Positions 7,904 to 38,424 of a DNA stretch of 38,439 nucleotides are shown here, piece after piece. Numbering within the stretch: position 1 is the stretch's first letter; every line of letters starts with the position of its first letter. The DNA lies in the IMG/VR virus record IMGVR_UViG_3300023110_000084, positions 1-38,439 of that record; one strand, given 5' to 3'. The DNA is from a virus. A program made the position numbers and the translations under genes. A model generated the notes under the pieces. That model saw only the letters and a list, made by a program, of their open reading frames with translations. It made no database searches and was not told where the DNA came from.

Positions 7904-7932
7904 AGTATAGAGTAATGTGTCTTGGTTGTCAA
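7904..7932 (-). promoter_or_regulatory. Sigma70-like promoter for uvsE
   Basis: Minus strand TTGACA (7927-7932), 17-base spacer, TATACT (7904-7909). The -35 box overlaps the stop codon of the radical SAM gene. The leader is about 30 bases. Confidence 0.65.
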
Positions 7933-14304: not shown

Positions 14305-15019
14305 CTATTTCTTCAATTAAAACTACTTTTGATGTACTTGTAATTATGTGCTTAAACATTAAATGCATTGCACAAACATCATCGTATTCTTTAAAATATA
14401 CTGTTCCAGTTGCACTATATGGAATATGCCGCCAACCATATGTAGGTGCTAAGGAGTTATGTGTCCTAGAAGTATATTTTTGTTCAAGCTCTTTCCATTT
14501 TGAATAATGTTTAAGTGTGCTGTTTAGCATGTAATTATTTTCTTCAAAACTGTCAACAATAAATTCAGATATGTTAATAAATTCATCCATGTTATCATGA
14601 TAACGATATAATTTTGTACTTACTTTGTATCTGTATACATTATAATATAATCTTTTTCGAAAACTTTGTGTCAGGTCAGAAATCATCATGTCGTTATGAG
14701 TTTTACTAAGCGGACCTGAAATAGCAGTTACAATATCATCAAATTCTTCAATTAAACATTGCACAGAGTTTAAATCTTTAAGGTATACATTAAATGTTGT
14801 ATCATTTCTAAAACGATAATCTTTTTCATTTTCTTGCAAAAATTTTAATACTTTTCTATTTTGCCAAAATGTTTCATGGAACCCTTGACTAAAAAGTGTA
14901 TTTTGTCGCCAATTGTGTCCTTGGAATGAAATCCTAAAAGGAAAGGATCCATACCAAGGTTTTGTGGCAAGTGTAAATCTACTGTCTTTATTAAGTTGTT
15001 CGTATGTTAATGTCGTCAT
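14300..15019 (-). CDS. Hypothetical protein, 239 residues
   Basis: A soluble protein rich in Tyr, Phe, His and Asn (PWYGSFPFRISFQGHNWRQN near the start; YGWRHIPYSATGTVYFKEYD near the end). Its GAGG ribosome site lies within the end of clpA, which it overlaps by 29 bases, so it probably shares the clpA transcript. Base composition is AT-rich. No motif recognised. Being read with clpA, it might be an adaptor or substrate selector for the protease, but that is speculation from position alone. Confidence 0.65.
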   Translation of the reverse strand: MTTLTYEQLNKDSRFTLATKPWYGSFPFRISFQGHNWRQNTLFSQGFHETFWQNRKVLKFLQENEKDYRFRNDTTFNVYLKDLNSVQCLIEEFDDIVTAISGPLSKTHNDMMISDLTQSFRKRLYYNVYRYKVSTKLYRYHDNMDEFINISEFIVDSFEENNYMLNSTLKHYSKWKELEQKYTSRTHNSLAPTYGWRHIPYSATGTVYFKEYDDVCAMHLMFKHIITSTSKVVLIEEIE

Positions 15020-17228
15020 CCTTTACCTCAATGTCAACTCTTGTAATGTTATTTCCAAACAAAAGTTGTTTTGCCAATGGCTTTTTAATTTTTTCATTGA
15101 TAAGTCTACCCATTGGTCGTGCACCCATACTTACTGTAAATCCATTTTCAGTTAACCAATCAATTACTTCTTGATTCCAATGCATACCAATATCTCTTGG
15201 TAACAACATTTCTACAACTTCTTGTAAAAACTTAATTGTAATTTGTTTTGTAAGTTCTTTGTCTAGTTTAGTAAATTGTACCACTGCATCTAGTCGGTTT
15301 CTAAATTCTGGTGCAAAGAAACGCTTAACAGCTTCTTCACTTGCACTTGTGTTATCATTGTCACCAAAGCCAATTGTGTTACGTTCTGCATCACGTGCGC
15401 CTAAATTTGAAGTTAAGATAATAATTGCATTACGTGCACTTACACTTTTACCTTCGCTATTGGTAATCATACCATTGTCCATAAGTTGCAATAGCACATT
15501 ACTTACATCTGGATGTGCTTTTTCAATTTCATCCAGCAGTAGGATACAGTTAGGGTGTTCTTCAAGTTTGTTGACAAGTAGTCCACTTCCTTGACCGCCT
15601 TCACCATATCCTACATACCCTGGGGGAGCACCGATAAGTTTGGCGACTGTGTGACGCTCTTGATATTCACTCATATCAAAACGTACAAGTTCCATACTCA
15701 TTGCGTTACTTAATTGTTTTGCTGTTTCTGTTTTACCAACACCTGTTGGTCCTGTAAACAAATAACAACCAATTGGCTTACTAGGATCTTTTAGTCCAGC
15801 CTTGGCAATATAAATGCTATCTGCAAGTCTAGTAATGGCTTCGTCTTGACCAAATACTTTCTTTTTAACAACTGATTCAATGTCTATTGGTTTTTCAGTT
15901 TTGTATTCACTGTCTTTTGTTAGCACTAATTGGTCAACTGGAATACGTGTTAGTTTAGCAACTTCATAACGAATATCATCTAACTCAAGTACGCTTTTAC
16001 GTGACTCCATAGGCAACAGTTTTTGTCTTGCTGCCGCAGCATCCAATACATCAAACGCTTTATCCGGCAATTGTCTATTGTGCCAGTATTGATGTGTTAA
16101 GTCTACTGCACCTTCAAGTGCTTGTTTTTCATATGCAATTTCATGATACAATTCATATGCTGGAATAGCTGCTTGAATAATACGCTTTGCGTCAGCAACA
16201 CTTGGTTCAGGCACATCTACTTTGTAAAATCTTCTATTAAGTGCTTTGTCTTTTTCAAAATTTTCACGATACTCGTCGTATGTTGTTGATCCAATACAAC
16301 GCAATTTGCCTTTTTGTAGTGCTGGTTTTAACAAGTTAGCAACATCCATGTTACCTTGTCCTGCATTACCTGCACCCATAATCATATGAATTTCGTCAAT
16401 AAAGAGGATAACATCATCTCTGCGTTCTAGTACATCAAGCACTTCTTTAAGACGTTCCTCAAAATCACCTCTAAATTTTGTACCAGCTAGTAGTGCACCA
16501 ATATCCAAACTGTAAATTGTATGGTCTTTAATTACATCTGGTACACGATCTTCATTAATCAAATGCGCAAGACCTTCTGCAATTGCTGTTTTACCAACAC
16601 CAGCTTCGCCAACAAGAATAACGTTATTCTTTTTACGACGAGCGATAGTTTGTACTAGTTGCTCAAGTTCTTGTTCACGACCAATCATTGGATCAATAGT
16701 GCCTTCTTCAGCTTGCTCGTTTAAATTATCACAAAATTTACGCAAGATTCTTTCTTGTTTAAGTGGCTTATCAGTTACTCTTTCTTCAACGTCATCTGTA
16801 GCATTATTGCTCAAATATCCTACTAATGTGTCTCTTGTAATATTATTTTGGTTAAGCAAAAATACTGCAGGGCTTTGTTCTTCTGTTAAAATACTAATTA
16901 ACAAATCACGTGGATCTAATGTATTGCGTCCGTTAAACAATGCCTGTGTAAATGCACGATTGAAAACACGCTCTAGCATAACTGTTTTTTTAGGCTGAAA
17001 TTCTTCATCTACTATCAAACTGTCTACTTCATTTTCTAAATAATGAATTATGTTGTCACGAATAATTTTAGGGTCTTTCTCAATATCATAAAGTATGTCT
17101 TGTACTTCAGTTGTTTCCAATAGTACAGCTAGTAAATGTTCAAGAGTTACATACTCATGTTTATAGCCACGGGTAAGTGCAAATAACTTTTCTACTAGTG
17201 CTTCAATTTTTGGGTCTTGTTGTGACAT
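14991..17228 (-). CDS. clpA: ClpA, ATP-dependent Clp protease ATPase subunit
   Basis: 745 residues, close to E. coli ClpA (758). Order: ClpN double-repeat domain (1-140), first AAA+ domain with Walker A GEAGVGKT (207-214) and Walker B LFIDE (275-279), second AAA+ domain with GPTGVGKT (493-500) and LLLDE (563-567). There is no long ClpB-type middle coiled coil. The ClpP-docking tripeptide IGF is present at 619-621, so the protein should dock on ClpP and feed unfolded substrates to it. A clpP gene lies at 37837-38424, so the phage may build its own ClpAP. A TTGACA/TATTAT promoter lies directly upstream (17261-17289). Confidence 0.95.
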   Translation of the reverse strand: MSQQDPKIEALVEKLFALTRGYKHEYVTLEHLLAVLLETTEVQDILYDIEKDPKIIRDNIIHYLENEVDSLIVDEEFQPKKTVMLERVFNRAFTQALFNGRNTLDPRDLLISILTEEQSPAVFLLNQNNITRDTLVGYLSNNATDDVEERVTDKPLKQERILRKFCDNLNEQAEEGTIDPMIGREQELEQLVQTIARRKKNNVILVGEAGVGKTAIAEGLAHLINEDRVPDVIKDHTIYSLDIGALLAGTKFRGDFEERLKEVLDVLERRDDVILFIDEIHMIMGAGNAGQGNMDVANLLKPALQKGKLRCIGSTTYDEYRENFEKDKALNRRFYKVDVPEPSVADAKRIIQAAIPAYELYHEIAYEKQALEGAVDLTHQYWHNRQLPDKAFDVLDAAAARQKLLPMESRKSVLELDDIRYEVAKLTRIPVDQLVLTKDSEYKTEKPIDIESVVKKKVFGQDEAITRLADSIYIAKAGLKDPSKPIGCYLFTGPTGVGKTETAKQLSNAMSMELVRFDMSEYQERHTVAKLIGAPPGYVGYGEGGQGSGLLVNKLEEHPNCILLLDEIEKAHPDVSNVLLQLMDNGMITNSEGKSVSARNAIIILTSNLGARDAERNTIGFGDNDNTSASEEAVKRFFAPEFRNRLDAVVQFTKLDKELTKQITIKFLQEVVEMLLPRDIGMHWNQEVIDWLTENGFTVSMGARPMGRLINEKIKKPLAKQLLFGNNITRVDIEVKDDDINIRTT

Positions 17229-20346: not shown

Positions 20347-20391
20347 CCTTTGTAGGCAACGTTGGGCTCACCTTAACCAATGGAGTACTAC

Positions 20392-21105
20392 ATGGCTAGA
20401 AGAGCGAGAAAACAAAATAGCAAGAGTTCATTTAACGACATGGTAGTAGAATTAAAAAACTACCAAAAAAAGAAAATTACTATTTTACCACGCAATGTAC
20501 ATCAAGAAGATTACATTGAATTACTAACTGATCACCAAAAATCTATTGTATTTGCAACCGGTCCTGCGGGTACTGGTAAAACAATGTTGGCTGTACAAAT
20601 GGGTATTAGCAAGTTTGAGTCTGGCGAAATTAGTAAAATAGTTGTTACAAGACCTGCTGTTTCAGTAGACGAACAACACGGTTTCCTTCCAGGCGATCTT
20701 AAAGATAAGATGGCGCCTTGGACACGACCAATTTTTGATGTATTAGAAGAACATTGGACACCAAAACAAGTAGAGCGTATGATTGAAAGTAAAGAAATCG
20801 AAATTGCTCCACTTGCTTACATGCGTGGCAGAACATTTAAAGAGTGCTGGATTGTAGCGGACGAAATGCAAAATGCTACACCAGAACAAATGAAAATGTT
20901 ACTAACACGCATTGGTACCGGTTCTAAAATTATCGTGACAGGAGACCTAGCACAACATGATAGAGGATTTCAAAATAATGGTCTTAAAGACTTTACAACA
21001 AAGTTAACTGAAAATCACAGTACCATAGGCTGTGTACATTTTACAAAAAAGGATGTCGAAAGACATCCTGCAGTTGTTGATGTTTTGAGTATTTACGGCG
21101 AATAA
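20392..21105 (+). CDS. phoH: PhoH-like ATPase
   Basis: 237 residues from the ATG at 20392, chosen because GGAG lies 6-7 bases before it; an ATG at 20380 has no such site. A P-loop ATPase with GPAGTGKT (57-64), an SF1-like motif region VVTRPAVSVDE, a Walker B WIVADEMQN and a sensor IIVTGDLAQHD. PhoH is a Pho-regulon protein in E. coli and very common in marine phages; its role in infection is unsettled, with RNA-linked ATPase or helicase activity proposed. It is one of only two plus-strand genes here, with its own late promoter, and ends abutting the HAD gene's stop. Confidence 0.93.
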   Translation: MARRARKQNSKSSFNDMVVELKNYQKKKITILPRNVHQEDYIELLTDHQKSIVFATGPAGTGKTMLAVQMGISKFESGEISKIVVTRPAVSVDEQHGFLPGDLKDKMAPWTRPIFDVLEEHWTPKQVERMIESKEIEIAPLAYMRGRTFKECWIVADEMQNATPEQMKMLLTRIGTGSKIIVTGDLAQHDRGFQNNGLKDFTTKLTENHSTIGCVHFTKKDVERHPAVVDVLSIYGE

Positions 21106-21678
21106 CTAAGACTTAATAATTAAATTAGCAATTTGAGTCCAGTTGTCTACCTTAGTTACACCGCTGTAGTCAAAATAAGCATTGTGCTCATGCCGCACAA
21201 GAACTGACTTTAGTCCTAAGTCAGCACCGAGTTTTGCATTGGAAGGCTTATCTTCGATCCACCACATGCCACTATCTTTGTAAGGCAACAGTGCTTCGTC
21301 CTTGTCAGCACCAGTGTCCAAACAAGTAACAAAGTCAAACACATCTCCAAAGTGCTTAACCAAGTTTTCTTCACGTAACTTACCAGCATAAGGATCCAAG
21401 CTCAAGCTAGTAATAGCACCAAACCGGTAACCAGCATCAGCAAGCATTTGCACACCTTGTACCGCATCCCGTAAAGGATTCAAACAACACATCCAAGCAC
21501 TGTTGTTGTACTCACGAACAAGTTCCTTTACATGCTCTTTACGTTGGTTATAAACTTTGTGCATATCATAGCTAGCAATAGCATTCCGAACAAAACCTTT
21601 TGACTCCATCCAATCATGAAAGCCAGTTTCCCAATCAAGCATTACGCCATCAATGTCAGTGAGTATTAATTTAGTCAT
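21106..21678 (-). CDS. HAD-superfamily phosphatase
   Basis: 190 residues. HAD motif I is ILTDIDGVMLDW (nucleophile Asp8, acid/base Asp10), motif II TS in AITSLSL, and motif III/IV WWIEDKPSNAKLGADLG with paired acidic residues. Such small phage HADs often act as 5'(3')-deoxynucleotidases or sugar-phosphate phosphatases; the substrate cannot be told. Driven by a TTGACA/TATATT promoter at 21707-21735. Confidence 0.82.
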   Translation of the reverse strand: MTKLILTDIDGVMLDWETGFHDWMESKGFVRNAIASYDMHKVYNQRKEHVKELVREYNNSAWMCCLNPLRDAVQGVQMLADAGYRFGAITSLSLDPYAGKLREENLVKHFGDVFDFVTCLDTGADKDEALLPYKDSGMWWIEDKPSNAKLGADLGLKSVLVRHEHNAYFDYSGVTKVDNWTQIANLIIKS

Positions 21679-21696: not shown

Positions 21697-21735
21697 TTAC
21701 ATATATAATATAGTAAAAGACATTGGTGATGTCAA
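21697..21735 (-). promoter_or_regulatory. Early-type sigma70 promoter with conserved -10 palindrome
   Basis: TTGACA (21730-21735), 17 bases, TATATT (21707-21712) on the minus strand. The -10 lies in the 20-bp element TTACATATATAATATAGTAA (plus strand, 21697-21716), found identically at five places. GACAT/ATGTC form an inverted repeat across the -35. Confidence 0.8.
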
Positions 21736-21748
21736 GTACTTTTTTGAA

Positions 21749-22333
21749 TTATTTTACGTCTGGCCACAAATAATTATAAAAATATTCGTTGGACGCATCT
21801 TCTCCAATGTGTGCACTGAGCATTTTACGTGTTTGCGGGTTAGCACGTTGTCCTTCAATGTATGCTTGTTGTTGTGTGGTGTAATTTTCCATGGTCATAT
21901 TAGGTAACCAAGTCAGATATTGTTCCAATACATCAACTGCAATCATCACTTCGTCTACGTTGTTAGGTTTGCAACATACGAAGCTAGGACTAAAGAACCC
22001 GCCCCAATCAGGTACAGGGCGAGGAACACCAATCTCTGGGATGTCGAACGTCTTGCCATTGACGGGAGTAAGATCCAAAAACATGCCAGTAAGATTACCG
22101 CTAATATTGATAACGTCAAAACCATAAATTGGTGCCTCCGAGTTAGAGTATGGCATTACAACTAAGTGTACAATTTCTACTTTGTCAGTTGTGTAATGCT
22201 CAAAGTGTGCCCAACGAAACCGTTCGTTAGACCATTTACGATGATGAAAGCCAAAGTCTTGTACTGGCATTTCATCTTTAAGTTCAAAATTTGATAGTAT
22301 TCTATCAATTATTGGTTTCAGATTGTTGTTCAT
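21749..22333 (-). CDS. Ferredoxin-dependent bilin reductase (PcyX/PebS/PcyA family)
   Basis: 194 residues, shorter than cyanobacterial PcyA (about 245). Family core seen: EIVHLVVMPYSNSEAPIYGF, then DVINISGNLTGMFLDLTPV (with His56 and the conserved Asp73, spaced 17 apart like PcyA His88 and Asp105), a WGGFFSP loop, and the C-terminal AHIGEDASNEYFYNYLWPD. These enzymes reduce biliverdin, using ferredoxin, to phycobilins. PcyX, described from oceanic phages, makes phycoerythrobilin; motif reading cannot separate products. No heme oxygenase is seen in the window. A 7Fe ferredoxin at 36058-36393 could be the electron donor. The gene overlaps the upstream small gene by 29 bases. Confidence 0.85.
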   Translation of the reverse strand: MNNNLKPIIDRILSNFELKDEMPVQDFGFHHRKWSNERFRWAHFEHYTTDKVEIVHLVVMPYSNSEAPIYGFDVINISGNLTGMFLDLTPVNGKTFDIPEIGVPRPVPDWGGFFSPSFVCCKPNNVDEVMIAVDVLEQYLTWLPNMTMENYTTQQQAYIEGQRANPQTRKMLSAHIGEDASNEYFYNYLWPDVK

Positions 22334-22529
22334 CTTCCATCATTTTCTTACATTGTAAGATAACTTTACGTTGAAAAGGCGTGTAATGCTCCCAACGTTT
22401 TGCAAACGGTGTATCCATCTCCGTTAATTCCTCGCCAAGATAACTTAGCAAGTTTGCTAACTCAAAATTGTCACCTGTTTTATAGGTTAAGTTCATCATA
22501 TAACGACCAAGTGCAGGTGCTGAAATCAT
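22305..22529 (-). CDS. Small hypothetical protein
   Basis: 74 residues, helical: YKTGDNFELANLLSYLGEE, then FAKRWEHYTPFQRKVILQCK and an acidic Gln/Asn tail. Coupled by ATGA to the gene upstream and overlapping the bilin reductase start. Not a heme oxygenase by length or motif. Function unknown. Confidence 0.6.
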   Translation of the reverse strand: MISAPALGRYMMNLTYKTGDNFELANLLSYLGEELTEMDTPFAKRWEHYTPFQRKVILQCKKMMEDEQQSETNN

Positions 22530-22807
22530 ACTCTGTGTTCCACTTCTTTGAATGTTTTGTCAAAACGGTTAATTGTACCAACCAATGCATGGTGGTCATT
22601 TTCATCAATAGCATAAATCATTGCAGCACGAACACGATTGGGTTCGTCTAGTACAACTTTTCCATACTCTACTGCCATAGTCAGGTTGTCAAAACTCATG
22701 CCCACACGACTATTACGCATGGGCTGAAATAATACAACATTGTATTTTACAGGATTATCAATGATCTCTTTTTCGAAAAGATCTTGTGGACTTGGTTTTC
22801 TAGCCAT
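22526..22807 (-). CDS. Small hypothetical protein
   Basis: 93 residues (MARKPSPQDLFEKEIIDNPV). An alpha/beta pattern with KYNVVLFQPMRN and DHHALVGTINRFDKTF. It overlaps the upstream stop by 1 base and the downstream start as ATGA, inside an early-type operon of small genes led by the promoter at 23420-23458. No family recognised. Confidence 0.65.
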   Translation of the reverse strand: MARKPSPQDLFEKEIIDNPVKYNVVLFQPMRNSRVGMSFDNLTMAVEYGKVVLDEPNRVRAAMIYAIDENDHHALVGTINRFDKTFKEVEHRV

Positions 22808-23043
22808 TACACATCCATTTCAAGTTGAGTGTTCATTAGTTCTACAGGCTGTTCAGCAATAACTTTTTCAACAGCTTCGTCCCATGCTTCGTAGTATGCT
22901 GTGTCATCTTTGAAGAACTTGTTTACTCCGCTCATATAGCAATCACTATCAACAAAGTTCCAGTTGATAGAACCATCATAGTCGATGTTCTCTGGATTAG
23001 CTGCTGCTTCACGAACTTGAGCTTCTACTAGTGAGTAAATCAT
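22807..23043 (-). CDS. Small hypothetical protein
   Basis: 78 residues from the ATG at 23043, which shares a base with the upstream TAA (TAATG). The longer open frame reaches 23169 but overlaps the upstream gene fully there. Acidic, with SINWNFVDSDCYMSGVNKFF and AYYEAWDEAVEKVI. Function unknown. Confidence 0.65.
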   Translation of the reverse strand: MIYSLVEAQVREAAANPENIDYDGSINWNFVDSDCYMSGVNKFFKDDTAYYEAWDEAVEKVIAEQPVELMNTQLEMDV

Positions 23044-23399
23044 TATACCAATCCTTGTTCTTTTGCTGCGTTTATGATAATTGGAGTAAAATCTTCTTCT
23101 ACACGGTCTTCCCAATATGCCCACTGCATACGTGAAGCATCCCAAGTGCTTCTTTGTGTTGGAGCCCAACCAAAAATGTTTACAAACAAACCACGCTTGT
23201 TACCTAGTCCGTTGTTAAACAAATCATAAACCGCATTTTGCGCTCTACGAAACTTATCAAGATGCTTGTTAGTACTACGAGCATTTTCACATGCGCCTTG
23301 TGCTGGAAGCATTTCTGTCAGCTTATTTGCTAAGTGCTCAAACCCACTGTTAACACCCCATTCGTTGCTAAACAGTTTTTCTTGATAACCTTTGTACAT
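23043..23399 (-). CDS. Hypothetical early protein
   Basis: 118 residues (MYKGYQEKLFSNEWGVNSGF). First gene after promoter cassette copy 1, with AAGGAAAC before the ATG. A helical middle part (KHLDKFRRAQNAVYDLFNN) is followed by WAPTQRSTWDASRMQWAYWE. No family recognised; position suggests an early host-takeover or regulatory role. Confidence 0.65.
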   Translation of the reverse strand: MYKGYQEKLFSNEWGVNSGFEHLANKLTEMLPAQGACENARSTNKHLDKFRRAQNAVYDLFNNGLGNKRGLFVNIFGWAPTQRSTWDASRMQWAYWEDRVEEDFTPIIINAAKEQGLV

Positions 23400-23410
23400 G
23401 TTGTTTCCTT

Positions 23411-23508
23411 TTTATCAACTTACATATATAATATAGTAACTCTAGACCAAAAGGTCAAGAGAAAAAGGCAAAAAAGTTTTCTTTGTTTTCAATGAGTTGT
23501 AATTTTTT
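23411..23508 (-). repeat. Promoter cassette repeat, copy 1
   Basis: About 95 bases nearly identical to copies at 26369-26463 and 26850-26942. It holds TTGACC, a 17-base spacer and TATATT (23430-23458) inside the conserved 20-bp -10 element (23420-23439). A GACC-N4-GGTC inverted repeat overlaps the -35. The upstream terminator arm is altered: where the other copies have TGCC in the stem, this one has no pairing, so termination is probably lost here. Confidence 0.85.
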
Positions 23509-23688
23509 TTAAAGTCCTAAAACTCTACCTACGTCTTCTTGTAATCCTTTGTGTGGATTTCTGCGTATGTAGTCAGAAACTTGTTCAAAATAAAAGGCAG
23601 CATCATCTTCATTTTGGTCTCTGAGCTTAATTGTGCAACTTTCCATAAATGCAATAAGCTCTTTTAGGCTAACACGTCCATCAGTCAT
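23509..23688 (-). CDS. Short hypothetical protein, 59 residues
   Basis: MTDGRVSLKELIAFMESCTI at the start, a middle with RDQNEDDAAFYFEQVSDYI, and an end VGRVLGL. Helical and acidic. It overlaps the MazG-like gene stop by 8 bases and ends directly at promoter cassette copy 1. A GGAG lies 11 bases before the ATG. Function unknown. Confidence 0.6.
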   Translation of the reverse strand: MTDGRVSLKELIAFMESCTIKLRDQNEDDAAFYFEQVSDYIRRNPHKGLQEDVGRVLGL

Positions 23689-23968
23689 TGATCATAGTAC
23701 TCCATGTTTTAAGTTTTTCACGTTTTACTTGTGCTCTTTGATATACTTGATCTTCATCAAGTAAACCATGGTCAAGCATCAAGTCAATCATACAATAAAC
23801 ATCGCCAACTTCTTCAAGAAGTTTTGATTTGTATTTGGGATCATCAAGTGCTGCTTCAATTGTGTCATACTTCCGAAGTATTTTCATACACACCTGAGTA
23901 AGTTCGCCGCACTCTTCGGCTGTAATTGCCATTAGTTGTTGCAGAGTGTTTATCGGTGTCTTGTCCAT
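23681..23968 (-). CDS. MazG-like nucleotide pyrophosphohydrolase
   Basis: 95 residues from the ATG at 23968 (AAGGAA 7 bases upstream). Metal-site motifs of all-alpha NTP pyrophosphatases: ITAEECGELTQ, then LLEEVGDVYCMID (EExxD). Such enzymes hydrolyse (d)NTPs or ppGpp-like nucleotides to monophosphates; phage MazG has been proposed to alter host nucleotide signalling or dNTP pools. A second, different MazG/HisE-like protein lies at 34743-35099. Confidence 0.78.
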   Translation of the reverse strand: MDKTPINTLQQLMAITAEECGELTQVCMKILRKYDTIEAALDDPKYKSKLLEEVGDVYCMIDLMLDHGLLDEDQVYQRAQVKREKLKTWSTMIND

Positions 23969-24086
23969 CATAAAATTCCTTATCATCAATCATCTGGAAT
24001 GCTCGTTCGAATAACGGATGGTTGTAGTTATTCAAAATTTCTGCAATATCAGTTCCTAGATCCTTAGTCTTCAACGTTGCCTCCAA
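23865..24086 (-). CDS. Doubtful small gene overlapping mazG-like gene
   Basis: A 73-residue frame starting MEATLKTKDLGTDIAEILNN. Its first 35 residues look like normal coding sequence and would fill the 95-base gap between the flanking genes, but its last 34 codons overlap the MazG-like gene in another frame and read as low-quality sequence (NYSRRVRRTYSG). It could be a real gene, or a decayed one. Confidence 0.35.
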   Translation of the reverse strand: MEATLKTKDLGTDIAEILNNYNHPLFERAFQMIDDKEFYDGQDTDKHSATTNGNYSRRVRRTYSGVYENTSEV

Positions 24087-24309
24087 GTTTTTTAACTATT
24101 TGTTTTTCTCTTCTGAGATCTTTCAAGTCATCTTCTATTGTACCATATATGCTACAATCATTTAATTTATCTTCTATATACCAATATAGACTATATAAAT
24201 CTTCCTTACAACGCCACGTAACATAACCATCCATACGTGGATCTGATTCGGCCCAGGCGATTTTGTCTACCTGAGCCTTGATATCTGATATAGACCAGTC
24301 TTTAATCAC
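24064..24309 (-). CDS. Small hypothetical protein, uncertain start
   Basis: 81 residues if started at the GTG at 24309, which just overlaps the upstream stop. An ATG at 24360 would overlap the upstream gene by 59 bases. Sequence KDWSISDIKAQVDKI, then YVTWRCKEDLYSLYWYIEDK and a Lys/Arg-rich end. Function unknown. Confidence 0.55.
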   Translation of the reverse strand: MIKDWSISDIKAQVDKIAWAESDPRMDGYVTWRCKEDLYSLYWYIEDKLNDCSIYGTIEDDLKDLRREKQIVKKLGGNVED

Positions 24310-24580
24310 TAAGTGCTTCTTGCAATTTACGCTGGACTTCACGCTCGATACGAGCTTCATCGCTTACACGACTTTTTGCACTAAACCAGCTCATCATGCC
24401 AACAATGTAAACAAACAAGCCAAGCATAGAAAGTGCAAACACATTATCATCTCCAAAGTAATGTGATGCAACTTGTAGCAGAGCAATTACCGCTACAATT
24501 CCAATTGCGGTTACTGCAAAATATCCTGCTGCATATACAACAGTGCGATGGTTTTCATTAAGATTACGAATCATGTTCAT
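24302..24580 (-). CDS. Small two-helix membrane protein
   Basis: 92 residues. Two hydrophobic segments (VVYAAGYFAVTAIGIVAVIA, about 14-36, and FALSMLGLFVYIVGMMSWF, about 48-66) are followed by a charged helix EARIEREVQRKLQEAL. GGAG precedes the ATG. It could act in membrane remodelling or exclusion; function unknown. Confidence 0.65.
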   Translation of the reverse strand: MNMIRNLNENHRTVVYAAGYFAVTAIGIVAVIALLQVASHYFGDDNVFALSMLGLFVYIVGMMSWFSAKSRVSDEARIEREVQRKLQEALSD

Positions 24581-24591
24581 GGGAGTCTCCT

Positions 24592-24774
24592 TTATACTGG
24601 AACATTATCAAACATTTGTTCGAGGTCAGCCTCAAACATTTCTACTTCACGCTCTTTGCGCTCGATCATCCGACGAAGTTGTTCCCGTGCCATGCGCTTC
24701 TCATCCGAAGCACCTTCCTCCCATGCAATGAGAACGTCTTTAAGAGTTTCGATATCTGCGAAAACTTCTGTCAT
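24592..24774 (-). CDS. Short acidic coiled-coil protein
   Basis: 60 residues from the ATG at 24774 (GAGG 8 bases upstream); the frame opens earlier at 24816 within the terminator, less likely. Strongly helical: EKRMAREQLRRMIERKEREV. Function unknown. Confidence 0.6.
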   Translation of the reverse strand: MTEVFADIETLKDVLIAWEEGASDEKRMAREQLRRMIERKEREVEMFEADLEQMFDNVPV

Positions 24775-24800
24775 TTTAAACCTCGTTTTTAGTGGATTAC

Positions 24801-24832
24801 AAAAACACTGTAGCACAACTGCGCTACAGTGT
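24801..24832 (-). terminator. Terminator-like hairpin overlapping a possible promoter
   Basis: ACACTGTAGC and GCTACAGTGT form a perfect 10-bp stem with an 8-base loop, followed on the minus strand by five T. The same DNA reads TTGACA (24830-24835), 17 bases, TACAGT (24807-24812), so it may also be a promoter whose spacer is an operator-like inverted repeat. Confidence 0.7.
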
Positions 24833-24838
24833 CAATAA

Positions 24839-25186
24839 TTATTTCAAGTAATGTGGACCAGTCCAGTTAATGCTGAAACCATCAAACACATTACCACGTG
24901 CAGCGTTCGTCGCAGGCGCATTCCATCCTGCTGCTTTTAAGATGTCGCCTTTTTTAAACTTAGGACCATCTTCTTTAACAACAAAGCCCCAAACACAGCC
25001 GTTATTCTCTTTGGTAATCTTGATATATTTCTTACCAACAGTATAACCAATGCCATCTTCGAACCGGTCAACCATGTCTTTTTGAACACTAGTATACTCA
25101 TCGTCACGTAGCATCCAGCCACGATAATCAGTTTTGATAGCTTCGACAAGTGTTTCAACAGCGGTTGTGATATCAGTGATTTGCAT
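24839..25186 (-). CDS. Hypothetical phage protein, 115 residues
   Basis: A beta-rich C-terminal part with IGYTVGKKYIKITKENNGCV, WGFVVKEDGPKFKKGDILKA and APATNAARGNVFDG, a pattern I recall from uncharacterised marine T4-like phage proteins. A single-gene unit: early promoter at 25217-25245 and a terminator directly after the stop. Function unknown. Confidence 0.7.
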   Translation of the reverse strand: MQITDITTAVETLVEAIKTDYRGWMLRDDEYTSVQKDMVDRFEDGIGYTVGKKYIKITKENNGCVWGFVVKEDGPKFKKGDILKAAGWNAPATNAARGNVFDGFSINWTGPHYLK

Positions 25187-25206
25187 AGTAACCTCTTTTT
25201 TTCTGC

Positions 25207-25245
25207 TTACATATATAATATAGTAAGACGTCTTGGTGATGTCAA
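25207..25245 (-). promoter_or_regulatory. Early-type sigma70 promoter with conserved -10 palindrome
   Basis: TTGACA (25240-25245), 17 bases, TATATT (25217-25222) on the minus strand, with the 20-bp element at 25207-25226. Its -35 flank matches the promoter at 21730 over TTGACATCACCAA. Confidence 0.8.
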
Positions 25246-25264
25246 GTGTTTTTTTAAAAAAAAT

Positions 25265-25561
25265 TCACTTTTTTTTCATCTTTTTTTGGTGTTCAAGTAA
25301 GTTTTCGAGGCCGCCTTCGACACGACTGGGATAGTCGCCAAGATAGGTTCCGGCTTGTAAGTCATCAACAGTAATAAGGTGCTTGTGAAAATGATCAATG
25401 TCATCCCATCTCTCCAACATAGTTTTACCCATTGAGTCAAAAAACGCATCACTGAGTATAGGTTCATCTTTTTTGTAGTAAGCATATGATGCCATCAAAT
25501 ACCATGGCACCATCATGTTTATATTTTCAGCAAATATTTCGGCTGCAGAATCGTCTAGCAT
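25265..25561 (-). CDS. Hypothetical protein with ligase-Ia-like segment
   Basis: 98 residues. VPWYLMASYAYYKKDEPILS followed by DAFFDSM resembles the YY..D.P..SD..YD motif of the small N-terminal domain of NAD-dependent DNA ligases, as seen in stand-alone cyanophage proteins. The C-terminus is Lys-rich. No adenylation domain is present, so it is not an active ligase by itself. Overlaps the upstream gene by 7 bases. Confidence 0.6.
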   Translation of the reverse strand: MLDDSAAEIFAENINMMVPWYLMASYAYYKKDEPILSDAFFDSMGKTMLERWDDIDHFHKHLITVDDLQAGTYLGDYPSRVEGGLENLLEHQKKMKKK

Positions 25562-25785
25562 TTTACACCGATATTACGTAGCATGTTTTTTGCAAGATTA
25601 GTATCTTTTTCAGCATCCTGCTCTAACATAGAATCGATTACCATTTCTTGCAGTGTTACTGCCATACGAAATGTGTCATCATCTAGTGATGTCATCCATT
25701 CAAATACTTCTTCTGTTGTGTCATATGACCACAACTTGTCTAGAATTTCAACCTGTTCGTTAGTAAGTCCATCAATACGTATCAT
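25555..25785 (-). CDS. Small acidic hypothetical protein
   Basis: 76 residues from the ATG at 25785, which shares a base with the upstream TAA (TAATG). MIRIDGLTNEQVEILDKLWS at the start, helical and acidic throughout. Function unknown; part of the operon begun at the promoter at 26386-26414. Confidence 0.65.
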   Translation of the reverse strand: MIRIDGLTNEQVEILDKLWSYDTTEEVFEWMTSLDDDTFRMAVTLQEMVIDSMLEQDAEKDTNLAKNMLRNIGVKC

Positions 25786-25994
25786 TATTCCACCCATATA
25801 TGATAGTACTTATTAGGAAGGTGCTCACAACTATAATTATGATGTTCTGCATAATTAATAACCTTGACACATTCCTGGGTACTATTACTAAAGTGTACAT
25901 CAGGCAAAGAAACAGCATGATTAAAGGCATACATTAATGTACCACCAATGTATATACCACATGCTAATACAAATATAAGTCTTCCCCAATTCAT
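25785..25994 (-). CDS. Small membrane-anchored protein
   Basis: 69 residues. One N-terminal hydrophobic segment (LIFVLACGIYIGGTLMYAF, about 6-24), then a polar His/Asn-rich part with two Cys (QECVKV and YSCEHL) that could form a disulfide outside the cytoplasm. Function unknown. Confidence 0.62.
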   Translation of the reverse strand: MNWGRLIFVLACGIYIGGTLMYAFNHAVSLPDVHFSNSTQECVKVINYAEHHNYSCEHLPNKYYHIWVE

Positions 25995-25995
25995 A

Positions 25996-26358
25996 TTATG
26001 ACCCCGTTACTAATTCAAAGCCAGTTTCAGTAGCTTCAAAGTTTTCGATAAAGTAGTGCCAGTCGCCTTGCTGTTTAGCTTGTTGGTAGCAAGATTCTGC
26101 AGCACGCCAAAAGTCAAGAACTGTTCCACCAGCAGTAAAAGCACTAACTTCTACCCACGCAGTGTCGTTCTGAATTTCTTCCATTGTAGCATCGCCACGA
26201 ATGAAACGATAAAACACACGGTGTGATTTATTCTTAAACAACTGTGTGTTGACGCTATCGGCTTCCCAAATGCTCCAAACAGTTTCAAAACCTAGTTCTT
26301 GCTGTTGTGCATCCCAGTACTGGATTGCTTGCATTTCTGTGTCAACTGCTACTGTCAT
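25996..26358 (-). CDS. Hypothetical early protein, 120 residues
   Basis: Acidic, with AIQYWDAQQQELGFETVWSI and HRVFYRFIRGDATMEEIQND. AAGGAG lies shortly before the ATG. First gene below promoter cassette copy 2. It may be an early regulator, but no motif is recognised. Confidence 0.65.
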   Translation of the reverse strand: MTVAVDTEMQAIQYWDAQQQELGFETVWSIWEADSVNTQLFKNKSHRVFYRFIRGDATMEEIQNDTAWVEVSAFTAGGTVLDFWRAAESCYQQAKQQGDWHYFIENFEATETGFELVTGS

Positions 26359-26368
26359 TTAGTATCTC

Positions 26369-26463
26369 CTTCTGCTTACATATATAATATAGTAATTCCA
26401 GACCAAAAGGTCAAGAGAAAAAGGCAAAAAAGTTTTCTGCCTTTTCAATGGGTTGTAATTTTT
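26369..26463 (-). repeat. Terminator-promoter cassette repeat, copy 2
   Basis: In transcription order: AAAAGGCA/TGCCTTTT terminator hairpin (26418-26445) with T-run, then TTGACC (26409-26414), 17 bases, TATATT (26386-26391) inside the 20-bp -10 element (26376-26395), then a ribosome site. A GACC-N4-GGTC repeat overlaps the -35. It ends one transcript and starts the next. Confidence 0.88.
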
Positions 26464-26835
26464 TTACTTTACAACAATTTTAATGTTACCTGAACGTGGA
26501 GAATACTTTGCAGTAAATCCTAGCTGTTCCATTACAGCAACAACGTCAGACGAACGAACATAACGGTTTGGCATAAACTTGAAAACAGTTACATCTGTAA
26601 ACACGCCGTTTGCCTTCTGTTCACGTGCAGTTTCAAAGATCTTCTCAAAGTAAGCAACATTGTTAACACGCAACATGCTACGCAACGTATCCATTACTGC
26701 GTTAACCTTGCTCTTGTGGCTATGTGAAGTGAAAAACTTGACGTTAGCATCATATGCTGCACGTGAACGCATTTCTGCATCTACTGCAAAAAACTTGGCT
26801 TGCTTTTCGTCTGCTGCTGGCTTCTGATGTGTCAT
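26464..26835 (-). CDS. Hypothetical early protein, 123 residues
   Basis: Starts at the ATG at 26835 because GGAG lies 6 bases before it; the ATG at 26847 overlaps that ribosome site. Basic and helical (AAYDANVKFFTSHSHKSKVN; VMDTLRSMLRVNN) with a C-terminal winged-helix-like pattern (VVAVMEQLGFTAKYSPRSGN). DNA or RNA binding is possible from the charge. Single-gene unit between cassette copies 2 and 3. Confidence 0.65.
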   Translation of the reverse strand: MTHQKPAADEKQAKFFAVDAEMRSRAAYDANVKFFTSHSHKSKVNAVMDTLRSMLRVNNVAYFEKIFETAREQKANGVFTDVTVFKFMPNRYVRSSDVVAVMEQLGFTAKYSPRSGNIKIVVK

Positions 26836-26849
26836 ATCTAACTCCATTT

Positions 26850-26942
26850 TTTCAACTTACATATATAATATAGTAAATCAAAACCTATTGGTCAAGTAAA
26901 AAAGGCAAAAAAGTTTTCTGCCTTTTCAATGGGTTGTAATTT
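26850..26942 (-). repeat. Terminator-promoter cassette repeat, copy 3
   Basis: Terminator stem AAAAGGCA/TGCCTTTT with six T (26898-26926), then TTGACC (26890-26895), 17 bases, TATATT (26867-26872) in the 20-bp element (26857-26876). The bases between -35 and -10 differ from copies 1 and 2, but an ACC-N4-GGT repeat at the -35 is kept. Confidence 0.88.
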
Positions 26943-27392
26943 TTATCCCACAGTAAACTGATTGCTTGGAGACAATGTGTCTCCATTAATCACAGTTTTA
27001 ATGCTGTGACAACGGCTGCACAATGTTTGCAAGTTTTCAGGGGCATTGTTTTCATGGTTACCATCAATATGATCTACATGCAATACATAGCGAATGATCT
27101 GATTACGCATTTTAGGATCTTCTACTGATTGTATCATTTCATCACTATATGGTGTATACCCACAACTTGAACAATGTGTTTCACGACTCTGGCTATATGA
27201 TTTTTTGGTAGTTGCCATACCGCCATATTCAGATAAGTTTTTCTGATGTTCACGACACAGTGTGTCACTTCCAGGTCCTTGATATGCTGTTAAAAATTTA
27301 TTACAGCCCTCGATTGTGCAACGAGTTTTTCTTGCTTTCCGGAGGGCAAGGCCCTCCTTTAGCAAGTCCATTTTAGGATCACGCAATGTCAT
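26943..27392 (-). CDS. HNH endonuclease
   Basis: 149 residues. The HNH core is HVDHIDGNHENNAPENLQTL followed by CSRCHSIKT: metal His-Asp, central Asn and the CxxC/H zinc knuckle, with another CSSCGY knuckle upstream and a third pair in the N-terminus (CTIEGC, then C-x2-H). The 5' neighbour stop lies 2 bases away. It may be a free-standing homing endonuclease or a packaging-type HNH; no intron borders are seen. Its stop meets cassette copy 3. Confidence 0.85.
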   Translation of the reverse strand: MTLRDPKMDLLKEGLALRKARKTRCTIEGCNKFLTAYQGPGSDTLCREHQKNLSEYGGMATTKKSYSQSRETHCSSCGYTPYSDEMIQSVEDPKMRNQIIRYVLHVDHIDGNHENNAPENLQTLCSRCHSIKTVINGDTLSPSNQFTVG

Positions 27393-32845: not shown

Positions 32846-32863
32846 ATTTTGAGGAGAATGACA

Positions 32864-33628
32864 ATGATATCGGACATGAATTTTAGACAGCGGAGCCTTC
32901 TATTCGCTAAACTTGCTAGTATTGCATATAGTGATGATACTAAACAAGTCAAAAAAGATGTAAAAGCATTAGGTTTTACCGAAATAGAATTTTACAACAA
33001 AGCAGGTGCACAAGCATACAGATTCCAAAACAAGGATGATATTGTAATTGCTTGCCGTGGCACACAGCCCAGTGAATTTAATGACATTAAAGCAGATTTA
33101 AAAGCGGCACCAGTTATGGCAGAAACAGTAGGTCGTGTGCATCATGGATTTAAAGCAGAAGTAGACGAGCTTTGGCCAATGGTACTAGAAGATTTACGTG
33201 AGTGTGGAAAAACTCGCAAGGCTTGGTTTTGTGGACACAGCCTAGGTGCTGCTATGACAACTATCATGGCAAGCCGTTGTGAAGATGACCCAGACATGCC
33301 AAACATTGAAGAAGTTTATACATACGGATCACCACGCACAGGTTGGCGTAAATTTGTAAACAGTCTTAACTGTAAACATCAGCGTTGGGTTAACAACAAT
33401 GATATTGTTACACGGGTACCGTTTGCTATTATGGGATACAAACATGATGGCTGCGAACACTATATGGACTCAAACGGAGATTATCGTCCAAACTTAAAAG
33501 GTTTGCGCAGAGTAAAAGATCGTTGGCGTGGAATGTGGATGGGTCTAAAACAAGGCGGAGTTGATAACTTTTCAGATCATTCAATGACAAATTATATTGC
33601 TAATTTAGAAAAGATTCAGGAGGGCTAA
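32864..33628 (+). CDS. Class 3 lipase-like alpha/beta hydrolase
   Basis: 254 residues from the ATG at 32864 (GAGGAG 7 bases upstream). Lipase_3 features: VIACRGTQPSEFND (oxyanion region), FCGHSLGAAM (nucleophile Ser126), NNNDIVTRVP (Asp180) and FSDHSMTNYI (His239), so the triad is complete. No signal peptide or membrane segment. It would hydrolyse lipid esters; release from the cytoplasm could occur at lysis, or it may act on inner-membrane lipids. Alone on the plus strand, with its own late promoter and terminator. Confidence 0.85.
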   Translation: MISDMNFRQRSLLFAKLASIAYSDDTKQVKKDVKALGFTEIEFYNKAGAQAYRFQNKDDIVIACRGTQPSEFNDIKADLKAAPVMAETVGRVHHGFKAEVDELWPMVLEDLRECGKTRKAWFCGHSLGAAMTTIMASRCEDDPDMPNIEEVYTYGSPRTGWRKFVNSLNCKHQRWVNNNDIVTRVPFAIMGYKHDGCEHYMDSNGDYRPNLKGLRRVKDRWRGMWMGLKQGGVDNFSDHSMTNYIANLEKIQEG

Positions 33629-35722: not shown

Positions 35723-36031
35723 TTAAACGGCAAAACTTTCGCCACAACCGCAACTAGCAGTGGCGTTTGGATTGACGACGGTTAGATAACTTCCGCCGAG
35801 TTCTGTTATATAGTCTACTGTACAGCCAAAAAGAAACATCTCGGCCATTACGTCAACGACCAAGATGTCTTCAATTAGTGTTCCATTTTCTGCTGTATCT
35901 GCAAAGTCCCATTCGTATTTGAAACCGCTACACCCGCCGCCTTTAACGCTGAGAGTAACATATTTTTTACTATGATTTATTGTCATTTCTGACAAATAAT
36001 CATAAGCCTTTTCAGTAACGTTTAAATTCAT
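35723..36031 (-). CDS. A-type iron-sulfur carrier (IscA/ErpA/SufA-like)
   Basis: 102 residues. GGGCSGFKY (Cys34) and ASCGCGESFAV (Cys94, Cys96) give the three conserved cysteines of A-type carriers, which pass Fe-S clusters to apo-proteins. Next to a ferredoxin gene and near a SufT-like gene, it may help mature the phage ferredoxin. A CATAAATA late motif (36055-36062) lies upstream. Confidence 0.92.
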   Translation of the reverse strand: MNLNVTEKAYDYLSEMTINHSKKYVTLSVKGGGCSGFKYEWDFADTAENGTLIEDILVVDVMAEMFLFGCTVDYITELGGSYLTVVNPNATASCGCGESFAV

Positions 36032-36054
36032 TTTCTGTCCTGGAGTGTTAAAGT

Positions 36055-36062
36055 TATTTATG
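36055..36062 (-). promoter_or_regulatory. Late promoter motif CATAAATA
   Basis: CATAAATA on the minus strand, 24 bases upstream of the A-type carrier ATG at 36031, overlapping the ferredoxin stop. Confidence 0.5.
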
Positions 36063-36393
36063 AGCCTGGGCCTGGGTTTTCACTAAAATGTTCCATTTTA
36101 TTTTCAATACCTTCCCAATCGTCAGCATCAGGGAATGGTTCTTTTTGTTCAAAAATAACTGGCCAAAGTTCGCTATATTTTCGATTAAAATCTACCCATT
36201 CTGATGCCCCAGGTGCAGTGTCTGGTTTAATTGCGTCTGCTGGGCATTCAGGCTCGCATACACCGCAATCAATACATTCATCAGGATTAATTACAAGCAT
36301 GTTTTCGCCTTCATAAAAACAGTCTACTGGACAGACAGCCACACAGTCTGTATACTTGCATTTAATACAAGAATCGTTTACGATATATGTCAT
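36058..36393 (-). CDS. fdxA: 7Fe ferredoxin, FdxA type
   Basis: 111 residues. Cysteines C9, C17, C21, C25 and C40, C43, C46, C50 in [19 protein letters not shown] and [14 protein letters not shown] match the [3Fe-4S][4Fe-4S] ferredoxins of Azotobacter FdI/FdxA type, common in Alphaproteobacteria. The C-terminal 50-residue extension ([15 protein letters not shown]) is also typical. It can carry electrons at low potential; the bilin reductase at 21749-22333 and the radical SAM protein are possible clients. Unlike the plant-type PetF ferredoxin of cyanophages. Confidence 0.94.
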
Positions 36394-36396
36394 ATA

Positions 36397-36720
36397 TTAT
36401 TTGGCTTTCTTTTGTGCTGACATAAAATCTTCAATCATGTCTGCTTTAGTTTTACGGCGGTCTAACTCTGCACCAAAACGTTCTAGTGCAAGATCGTCAA
36501 TAGCTTTCTTAGTCAGTTTATCTAAACTTTTACGTGTTTCTCGTTTAGGTTTTTCTGTTGTGCTTTTTTTAGGTTTTACTGTTACTGGTGAAACAGCTTC
36601 AGCATTTTCAATTTTTTGCTCTGGTGTTAAAACCAATGTGTCTTGCTTTTCTTCATTAAACTCATAAGGTCTGACACTTTTAACACCTAAAAGTTCTTTT
36701 ATCCTGTTGATCCATACCAT
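36397..36720 (-). CDS. Hypothetical protein with HeH/SAP-like C-terminus
   Basis: 107 residues. A variable N-terminus, a Lys/Thr/Pro-rich linker (KPKKSTTEKPKRETRKS), and a C-terminal helix pair LTKKAIDDLALERFGAELDR followed by RKTKADMIEDF, like HeH/LEM or SAP-type small domains that contact nucleic acid or termini of virion proteins. Exact role unknown. Lies between ferredoxin and SufT-like genes. Confidence 0.62.
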   Translation of the reverse strand: MVWINRIKELLGVKSVRPYEFNEEKQDTLVLTPEQKIENAEAVSPVTVKPKKSTTEKPKRETRKSLDKLTKKAIDDLALERFGAELDRRKTKADMIEDFMSAQKKAK

Positions 36721-36730
36721 AATAATCTCC

Positions 36731-37009
36731 TTAAAATATTCCTAGTAAAAGTTTTGCATCGTCGCTCATTAACTCAGGTCCCCATTGGGGATTGAATGTA
36801 ACATCAACGTTTACACTTTCAATGCCGACGACATTAAAGGCAGCACCACGAACATCATTTACGATGTCATCTGCTGCAGGACAAAACGCACTAGTTAAAC
36901 TCATTGTAATATTACACTTACTTTCTTGAATGTCAATATTATAAATCAATCCTAAGTCATAAATGTTGACACTTATTTCAGGATCATATACTTGCTTTAA
37001 ATTTTCCAC
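36731..37009 (-). CDS. SufT-like (MIP18/DUF59) Fe-S assembly factor
   Basis: 92 residues if started at the GTG at 37009, which overlaps the upstream TAG. No in-frame ATG exists before the conserved core, and the frame opens at a TTG at 37078. Core motifs: VYDPEISVNIYDLGLIYNI, MSLTSAFCPAAD and VTFNPQWGPELMSDDAKLLL, as in SufT/PaaD-type proteins that aid cluster insertion. With the A-type carrier and ferredoxin it forms a small Fe-S module. Confidence 0.85.
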   Translation of the reverse strand: MENLKQVYDPEISVNIYDLGLIYNIDIQESKCNITMSLTSAFCPAADDIVNDVRGAAFNVVGIESVNVDVTFNPQWGPELMSDDAKLLLGIF

Positions 37010-37263
37010 TATTGCATTGTGTATTGTGTTTGTGCTAACATCTTGAATGTCAGCATGTCCTCTTTTTTCTTGAACCAAACTTCTACTCCATGTATGTGTT
37101 TATCATATTTCCATGCGCCATAATCATTACCAAACGTGTCTATTAAAAATTCAGCAAATGAATTATTGTCAAAATAGTCACGTTTTATTGATAGGGTGCA
37201 ATGATAATGACTATTTTGTGTCCAACTTGCACCCCACTGTAAACTTATGCTCAAGTTTCCCAT
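37009..37263 (-). CDS. Small hypothetical protein
   Basis: 84 residues (MGNLSISLQWGASWTQNSHY), with paired His/Cys (HYHCTL) and aromatic-rich strands (WKYDKHIHGVEVWFKKKEDM). It sits 3 bases after the QueD-like stop and overlaps the SufT-like start. Function unknown. Confidence 0.6.
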   Translation of the reverse strand: MGNLSISLQWGASWTQNSHYHCTLSIKRDYFDNNSFAEFLIDTFGNDYGAWKYDKHIHGVEVWFKKKEDMLTFKMLAQTQYTMQ

Positions 37264-37266
37264 ATT

Positions 37267-37764
37267 TTATTCAAACAGATCTTCATTCCATTCTCTATGG
37301 CCTTCACGATATGCCATGTTAGCGATTGTTTCACGCACTTCTACTTTAAAGCACCACAAACGATCAGCTTCTGCCGGACCCCACATATCTGGAATATAAA
37401 CACCATTTACATATTTGTAGATTTGATCTGCCAATCCTTCACAACCCAAACGTGGAAGAATTGTTAGTTTTGCAATGCCACGTTCTTGCATTGTTTTATA
37501 CAGTTCTAGTTCAGGATCATCTTCTGCTACCAACAATGTATGATCAAATTGATCTTCCATCTGAGCTTTTAGTTCTCTTAGTCCACCATAATCAGCTACC
37601 CAGTTACGAGCATCTAGTGTGTCAGTTCCAAAATAAAACTTCATACTAAACGAGTAACCGTGTATTTGATTACAATGACTGTCAGCTTTCCACTGTCTAT
37701 ATGCACATGGAAAAGCATTGTGATATTCTTTTGTACTTACATATTTGTATGTTACTGGTTGCAT
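37267..37764 (-). CDS. queD: QueD-like 6-carboxytetrahydropterin synthase (PTPS family)
   Basis: 165 residues. YHNAFPCAYRQW (His15), the catalytic-Cys segment SHCNQIHGYSF (Cys31, His35), VADYGGLRELK and FDHTLLVAEDDP (His75) match the T-fold family. The usual HGH zinc motif reads HGY here, so the third zinc ligand is replaced by Tyr37. QueD makes the 7-deazaguanine precursor for queuosine or DNA modification. Its AGAGG ribosome site lies in a small hairpin. The other queuosine genes are not in the window. Confidence 0.82.
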   Translation of the reverse strand: MQPVTYKYVSTKEYHNAFPCAYRQWKADSHCNQIHGYSFSMKFYFGTDTLDARNWVADYGGLRELKAQMEDQFDHTLLVAEDDPELELYKTMQERGIAKLTILPRLGCEGLADQIYKYVNGVYIPDMWGPAEADRLWCFKVEVRETIANMAYREGHREWNEDLFE

Positions 37765-37833: not shown

Positions 37834-37841
37834 TATTTATC
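37834..37841 (-). promoter_or_regulatory. Late promoter motif GATAAATA
   Basis: GATAAATA on the minus strand, about 70 bases upstream of the queD ATG and overlapping the clpP stop. Confidence 0.55.
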
Positions 37842-38424
37842 GTTTTTCAATTACTTGATCTGCAAGACCGTAATCAACTGCTTCTTGTGCTGTCATAAAA
37901 TTATCTCTATCCATGTCACGTTCAAAGTCAGCATAAGTCTTGCCTTTAGTATTATGTTTAACATACAAATCTGTCAACATCTTTTTCATATGTGTGATTT
38001 CTTTGTATTGAATTTCAATGTCACTTTGCATACCACGTGCACCTCCGCTTGGTTGGTGAATCATTGTACGACTGTGTGGCAATACATAGCGTTTGCCAGG
38101 CGCACCTGCTTGTGCAAGGAAACTACCCATGCTACATGCTTGTCCCATTACAACCGTAGTTACATCTGGTTTAATATATTGCATAGTATCATAGATGCTC
38201 ATACCAGCTGTAATAACACCGCCTGGACTGTTAACATAAAGTGTAATATCTTTATCTGGATTTTCACTTTCTAAAAATAATAGTTGGCTAACAACTAGAT
38301 TAGCCATATAATCTTCTACTGCACCGTTTAGCATTACTACACGGTCTTTTAATAGGCGACTGTAGATGTCATAACTACGTTCACCTTGACTTGTTTTATC
38401 AACTACAATAGGCACTAACGCCAT
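37837..38424 (-). CDS. clpP: ClpP protease
   Basis: 195 residues, full length. The serine protease triad is intact: [10 protein letters not shown] (Ser98), [10 protein letters not shown] (His123) and [11 protein letters not shown] (Asp172). The N-terminal strand and hydrophobic pocket residues needed for ClpA/ClpX loops are present in outline. ClpP forms a 14-mer chamber that degrades proteins delivered by ClpA. With the phage ClpA at 14991-17228 it could form a phage ClpAP. AGGAG lies before the ATG. Confidence 0.95.

Follow-up and report, generated by a model that had tools for sequence, protein, structure and literature searches.

A dyad between the -35 and -10 boxes of phage promoters as a probable operator for a dimeric repressor

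Why do five promoters on one strand of a viral genome fragment carry an identical 20 bp around the -10 box, and what reads them? The DNA analysed here (the window) is a linear virus record of 38,439 bases. It probably represents part of the genome of a marine jumbo phage; the jumbo assignment follows from its clamp loader, nearest to that of Pseudomonas phage PA5oct (53%), and its ClpA, nearest to those of phages Phosso and Atu_ph07 (about 45%), all three of which are jumbo phages. An initial annotation of the window reported five exact copies of TTACATATATAATATAGTAA, each with a 17-base spacing to TTGACA or TTGACC, and proposed that a bound regulator or a phage-specific polymerase recognizes them. 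We find the copies at 21697, 23420, 25207, 26376 and 26857, where 0.01 are expected (100 shuffles), and no further site within 3 mismatches in the window. The 17-base spacing is present at all five sites when they are read on the minus strand. In this direction, the order is TTGACA or TTGACC, 17 bp, TATATT and ATATATGTAA; an ATG follows after about 30 nt. The -35 box is TTGACA at 21735 and 25245, and TTGACC at 23458, 26414 and 26895. Small genes on the minus strand lie downstream of all five promoters, which, judging from their layout and strength, would belong to the early class. The copies, the promoter cores and a sixth member of the set are as follows.

21697-21716, minus strand: 20-mer copy 1 (-10 plus start region), exact match
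21707-21735, minus strand: promoter core of the NT5C-like gene 21106-21678 (PF06941), -35 TTGACA at 21730-21735, -10 TATATT at 21707-21712
23420-23439, minus strand: 20-mer copy 2, exact match
23430-23458, minus strand: promoter core of gene 23043-23399, -35 TTGACC, -10 TATATT
25207-25226, minus strand: 20-mer copy 3, exact match, its TTAC forming the right arm of the operator described below
25217-25245, minus strand: promoter core of gene 24839-25186, -35 TTGACA, -10 TATATT
26376-26395, minus strand: 20-mer copy 4, exact match
26386-26414, minus strand: promoter core of gene 25996-26358, -35 TTGACC, -10 TATATT
26857-26876, minus strand: 20-mer copy 5, exact match
26867-26895, minus strand: promoter core of gene 26464-26847, -35 TTGACC, -10 TATATT
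7904-7932, minus strand: TTGACA-17-TATACT promoter of the UvdE gene 6807-7865 (PF03851), the sixth member, without the 20-mer

The extended conservation had also been described as near-palindromic. The 20-mer is indeed identical beyond the -10 hexamer, but its palindrome is weak and consists only of a TTAC/GTAA pair around an AT-rich core. The element is a composite: TTAC (the right arm of an operator in the 25207 copy) is followed by a sigma70-type -10 box and by GTAA of a conserved start region, which reads GTAAGTTAA or GTATAAGTTAA among the phage promoter members. Read in this way, the 20-mer is not the regulatory unit.

A TTGACA-like -35 box and a TATAAT-like -10 box, 16-18 bp apart and before a gene, are found in the five window promoters and in about 100 relatives. 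The exact conservation beyond -10 might point to a phage-specific RNA polymerase contacting the 20-mer. However, a -35 box is never missing and its spacing is precisely 17 bp, as with the host sigma70 RNA polymerase, and the -10 region of the relatives varies while the sigma70 layout stays. The polymerase proposal thus finds no support, and we consider it very improbable. The T4 MotA middle promoter, in which a MotA box replaces the -35 box, was set aside as a model, a -35 box being present in all five window promoters. The T4 early promoters (sigma70, with UP, -35, TGn and -10 elements) are closer; they too are very strong promoters for the host polymerase with conservation beyond the hexamers (PMC2988021).

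Recent duplication of whole cassettes, named in the annotation as the finding that could undo its reading, is not the explanation. Comparing the ten pairs of cassettes gives a mean identity of 1.0 within the 20-mer, against 0.58 upstream, 0.38 over the 14 leading bases of the spacer and 0.47 over 20 nt on the downstream side; since the flanks are far less alike, the 20-mer is kept beyond cassette duplication. The cassettes at 23420, 26376 and 26857 are evident relatives of one another, with 85-95% upstream identity, and the remaining ones have hardly more than the core in common.

A regulator-free origin has to be weighed here, in which spacer and 20-mer are a favoured strong promoter sequence spread by recombination of promoter-terminator cassettes, like the PeSLs of T4-type phages. 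Terminator-like hairpins stand ahead of 2 of the 5 window promoters and of 26 of the 88 operator promoters in relatives, and the uniformity of the 20-mer within the genome suggests homogenisation. The two window hairpins lie directly upstream of their promoters, with approximate limits.

26415-26450, minus strand: terminator-like hairpin (AAAAGGCAGAAAACTTTTTTGCCTTTTT), fold z -4.2
26896-26931, minus strand: terminator-like hairpin, fold z -4.8

PeSL cassettes likewise combine repeated sigma70-like promoters with stem-loop terminators between small genes (cited in PMC4503421); the difference is that only part of the promoters here have a hairpin (26 of 88) and that the spacer operator is extra. 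An unrelated 410-kb contig also has a similar extended -10, so that this part need not involve a regulator. The regulator-free origin nevertheless leaves four of the observations below unexplained, namely the dyad symmetry, the occurrence of symmetric variants from phage to phage, an operator position that shifts at fixed -35/-10 spacing, and the near-universal link to one gene. We regard it as quite unlikely.

The unrelated contig, G045 (IMGVR_UViG_2799112330_000002, 410 kb), and a second one, G046 (IMGVR_UViG_3300031867_000212, 38.8 kb), hold a promoter-like family (loci L615-L643) with 29 matches within 3 mismatches overall. The extended -10 of this family (ACTATATTAT-N3-TGTAA) is very similar, but TTGAAT stands at 16 bp instead of TTGAC at 17, and no spacer operator is seen in this family. 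A repeated terminator block (TTACAACCYATTGAAA, a hairpin and a T-run) often lies ahead of the promoters of the present set, at window 26362-26470 and 26843-26950 and at many of the relatives' loci.

The annotation had suggested a motif search in relatives. The closest relative found, the 133-kb contig G008, is collinear with the window, and most orthologs are 45-95% identical. Several of the shared genes are preceded in G008 by promoters in which the 20-mer is missing; what these have in common instead is the spacer sequence, ACCAAGACGTCTTACT or ACCAAGACGTTTTGGT, a dyad between -35 and -10. We scanned viral contigs with the pattern TTGACN{0,2}CCAAGACGTNTT and pooled the matches with those of an earlier scan. 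Among the matches listed, a -10 box follows at precisely 17 bp in 102 of 141, and at 16 or 18 bp in none. When bacterial genomes are scanned with this pattern, the matches listed comprise 118 sites, of which 1 has the 17-bp spacing and 4 have 16 or 18 bp, a background level. About 100 non-redundant promoters share one layout, in which the operator is a roughly 16-bp dyad in the 17-bp spacer, with a half-site of about A[C/G][C/T]AAGAC and the core AAGACGTCTT. The operator looks like an independent element, because its start offset from the -35 box varies (5, 6, 7, 8) while the 17-bp spacing is constant. Contigs G003, G004, G006, G007 and G027, which may be fragments, have neither the exact operator pattern nor the 96-aa protein discussed below, an absence that counts for little in possible fragments. 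No operator match is found in isolate phages, and the clade has no match among 50,697 phage records with blastn at the sensitivity chosen. We discarded a less stringent operator scan of whole contigs, in which chance matches were too numerous.

Using a matrix built with the window left out, we scored the window promoters and found the following operators.

25222-25237, minus strand: spacer operator ACCAAGACGTCTTACT, full consensus, promoter 25207, p<5e-5
26877-26892, minus strand: spacer operator ACCAATAGGTTTTGAT, beginning inside the -35 box, promoter 26857, p=1e-4
7911-7926, minus strand: spacer operator ACCAAGACACATTACT, promoter 7932 before the UvdE gene, p<5e-5
21712-21727, minus strand: degenerate spacer operator ACCAATGTCTTTTACT, promoter 21697, p=0.0014

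The matrix scan detects no full operator at 23420 (p=0.41) or 26376 (p=0.25). Unlike the uniform 20-mer, the operator in the window is thus clear, degenerate or undetected depending on the promoter. A second promoter class in relatives, TTGACATCTTGGTCTAGAACTGCTAGA (L142, L147, L196, L295, L331), resembles the window promoters 23420 and 26376, and promoters of this kind may hold a different site.

The symmetry of the operator was examined in several sets of spacers. Of 108 promoters at the same loci that the search pattern does not match, 4 contain a perfect 16-bp dyad, compared with about 0% of shuffles. Six contigs were retrieved through the protein and not through the operator; in these, 10 of 148 spacers have a perfect 10-bp dyad (shuffles: mean 1.7, maximum 8). 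The sequence of these ten is AAGACGTCTT or AAGATATCTT in every case, with its centre at spacer position 7-8. None is found in the 44 spacers of G006 and G027, contigs without the protein. The divergent contig G005 has a symmetric variant, AAGGCGCCTT or AAGGATCCTT, at the same spacer place, and its summed dyad score is 91 versus 76.1 for shuffles (sd 3.9, maximum 90 of 2000). Site-by-site covariation of the left and right arms is absent in the main register (p = 0.96), and the case for symmetry therefore rests on the recurring perfect dyads and the symmetric variants. Both arms are built largely from a small common set of triplets (ACC, AGT, AGC), a pattern that would fit a dimer whose subunits read the half-sites separately.

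These observations argue for the bound regulator of the initial annotation as likely, but they move its site from the -10 20-mer to the -35/-10 spacer dyad, which is conserved across phages. We consider it probable, by a modest degree, that host RNA polymerase of the sigma70 type uses the five sites as strong promoters and that a dimeric repressor, for which a 96-aa protein is the lead candidate, has its operator in the spacer. Such an operator is not described for T4 early promoters in the available text of PMC2988021, and the spacer dyad sets the promoters here apart from them. The operators and stoperators of mycobacteriophage L5 are similar in that many copies of one repressor site occur, some of them in promoters and tied to the direction of transcription (PMC9283540). 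They differ in being asymmetric 13-mers bound by an HTH monomer, whereas the site here is a dyad fixed in the spacer, and the L5-type 13-bp site was rejected on this ground. By analogy, the present set would work like a phage-wide repressor operator set, as in L5, within strong T4-like early promoters, and it would be a member of neither system.

The dimer could also be supplied by the host, with the phage borrowing a host operator and its early genes following a host signal. Neither HTH_3 nor RHH_1 proteins are found in 17 phage contigs, all fragments, and the core AAGACGTCTT contains the 8-bp AGACGTCT, the MET-box of gammaproteobacterial MetJ (PMC4239095). In bacterial genomes, however, the operator pattern occurs without the promoter spacing (the 1 of 118 above, among the matches listed). 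The MetJ operator requires two or more tandem AGACGTCT boxes, whereas each promoter here has a single one. The operator also differs between phages (AAGACGTCTT, AAGATATCTT, AAGGCGCCTT), as for a phage-specific pair, and it travels with a phage gene. A host factor is therefore an unlikely reader of the dyad. The candidate was compared with MetJ by hhalign and rejected as a homolog (probability 1.6, with an approximate MetJ sequence). Membership of the ribbon-helix-helix group was provisionally set aside, with no RHH_1 match in the 17 contigs and no PDB fold match for the candidate.

In virulent phages, the mechanism by which early promoters are shut off is often unclear. In T4, early shut-off persists without AsiA (PMC2988021). 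On the preferred repressor reading, a DNA-binding protein, most probably encoded by the phage, would occupy the spacer dyad as a dimer and block the polymerase, so that the early genes would be turned off once the regulator is plentiful. The lead candidate for this dimer is the 96-aa protein, which would limit its own synthesis, as its gene lies behind the same operator-promoter. We infer protein binding, repression rather than activation, the timing and the identity of the binder from the sequences.

A protein in the spacer might instead activate transcription, binding between -35 and -10 together with the polymerase. Spacer-bound activators exist in the MerR family, but MerR-type activation uses 19-20 bp spacers, and the near-consensus -35 and -10 boxes at the optimal 17-bp spacing make activation unneeded. 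Activation is thus improbable to a marked degree.

The annotation had also proposed a search for a phage DNA-binding protein that co-occurs with the motif. A linked gene was found, although its product has no recognisable DNA-binding domain. The 96-aa family is among those whose genes most frequently follow operator promoters. When loci were collected with this protein as the query, 136 relatives came up, and we retained 80. All 41 distinct upstream regions of the gene contain a TTGA-17 type promoter, and 40 of the 41 have an operator-like spacer at p < 0.005. An operator promoter lies upstream of the gene in 98% of 61 loci; the figure is 75% for the next family and averages 6% over 51 families. 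The leader of the gene contains a second operator-like site (GGTAAGACGTCATGGC) in the G008-like group, and in G005 the homolog follows the operator promoter by about 680 bp, in an apparent operon. The gene is absent from the 38-kb window, itself a fragment.

Searches by family, sequence and fold give no match for the candidate. Two AlphaFold models (pLDDT 80.7 and 81.5) find no fold match in the PDB; the N-terminal strands and helices are short and of low confidence. A Pfam/PHROG scan of 92 small conserved proteins shows no known regulator in the 25 families listed, and a divergent homolog of the candidate has no relative among isolate phages. A 76-aa gene adjoining the candidate is present in 58 of the loci, and its product is an alternative candidate regulator. 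More tentatively, and with odds that we would put below even, the 96-aa proteins may form a new family of small phage transcription factors without a known fold, which use their own dyad operator in sigma70 spacers as an autoregulated early-gene off-switch in a widespread clade of uncultured marine large phages. With a defined operator and a named candidate gene, early shut-off becomes directly testable in this clade; they also provide a sequence marker by which metagenomic fragments of such phages could be connected.

The leader of the 96-aa gene (L535-L614), 70-90 nt long, is conserved, with GATGTCATGGCA ... AGGCA ... AAAGGCA ahead of the ATG. An RNA element is one possibility, further protein sites another.

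Several other genes of these phages deserve mention. The window encodes ClpP (PF00574, E 7e-80) at 37837-38424 and ClpA at 14991-17228, and G008 61018-62803 encodes an IF-1-like protein (Pfam) together with ClpS-, Hsp20- and IF-3-like proteins recognized by eye only. A ferredoxin-dependent bilin reductase (PF05996), a 4Fe-4S ferredoxin, two Fe-S assembly proteins and a PTPS/QueD-like enzyme are encoded at window 21749-22333 and 35723-37764; a protein scan of viral contigs found no relatives of the bilin reductase. PhoH-like and class-3 lipase-like genes, at 20380-21105 and 32849-33628, lie on the plus strand, in contrast to nearly all of their neighbours.
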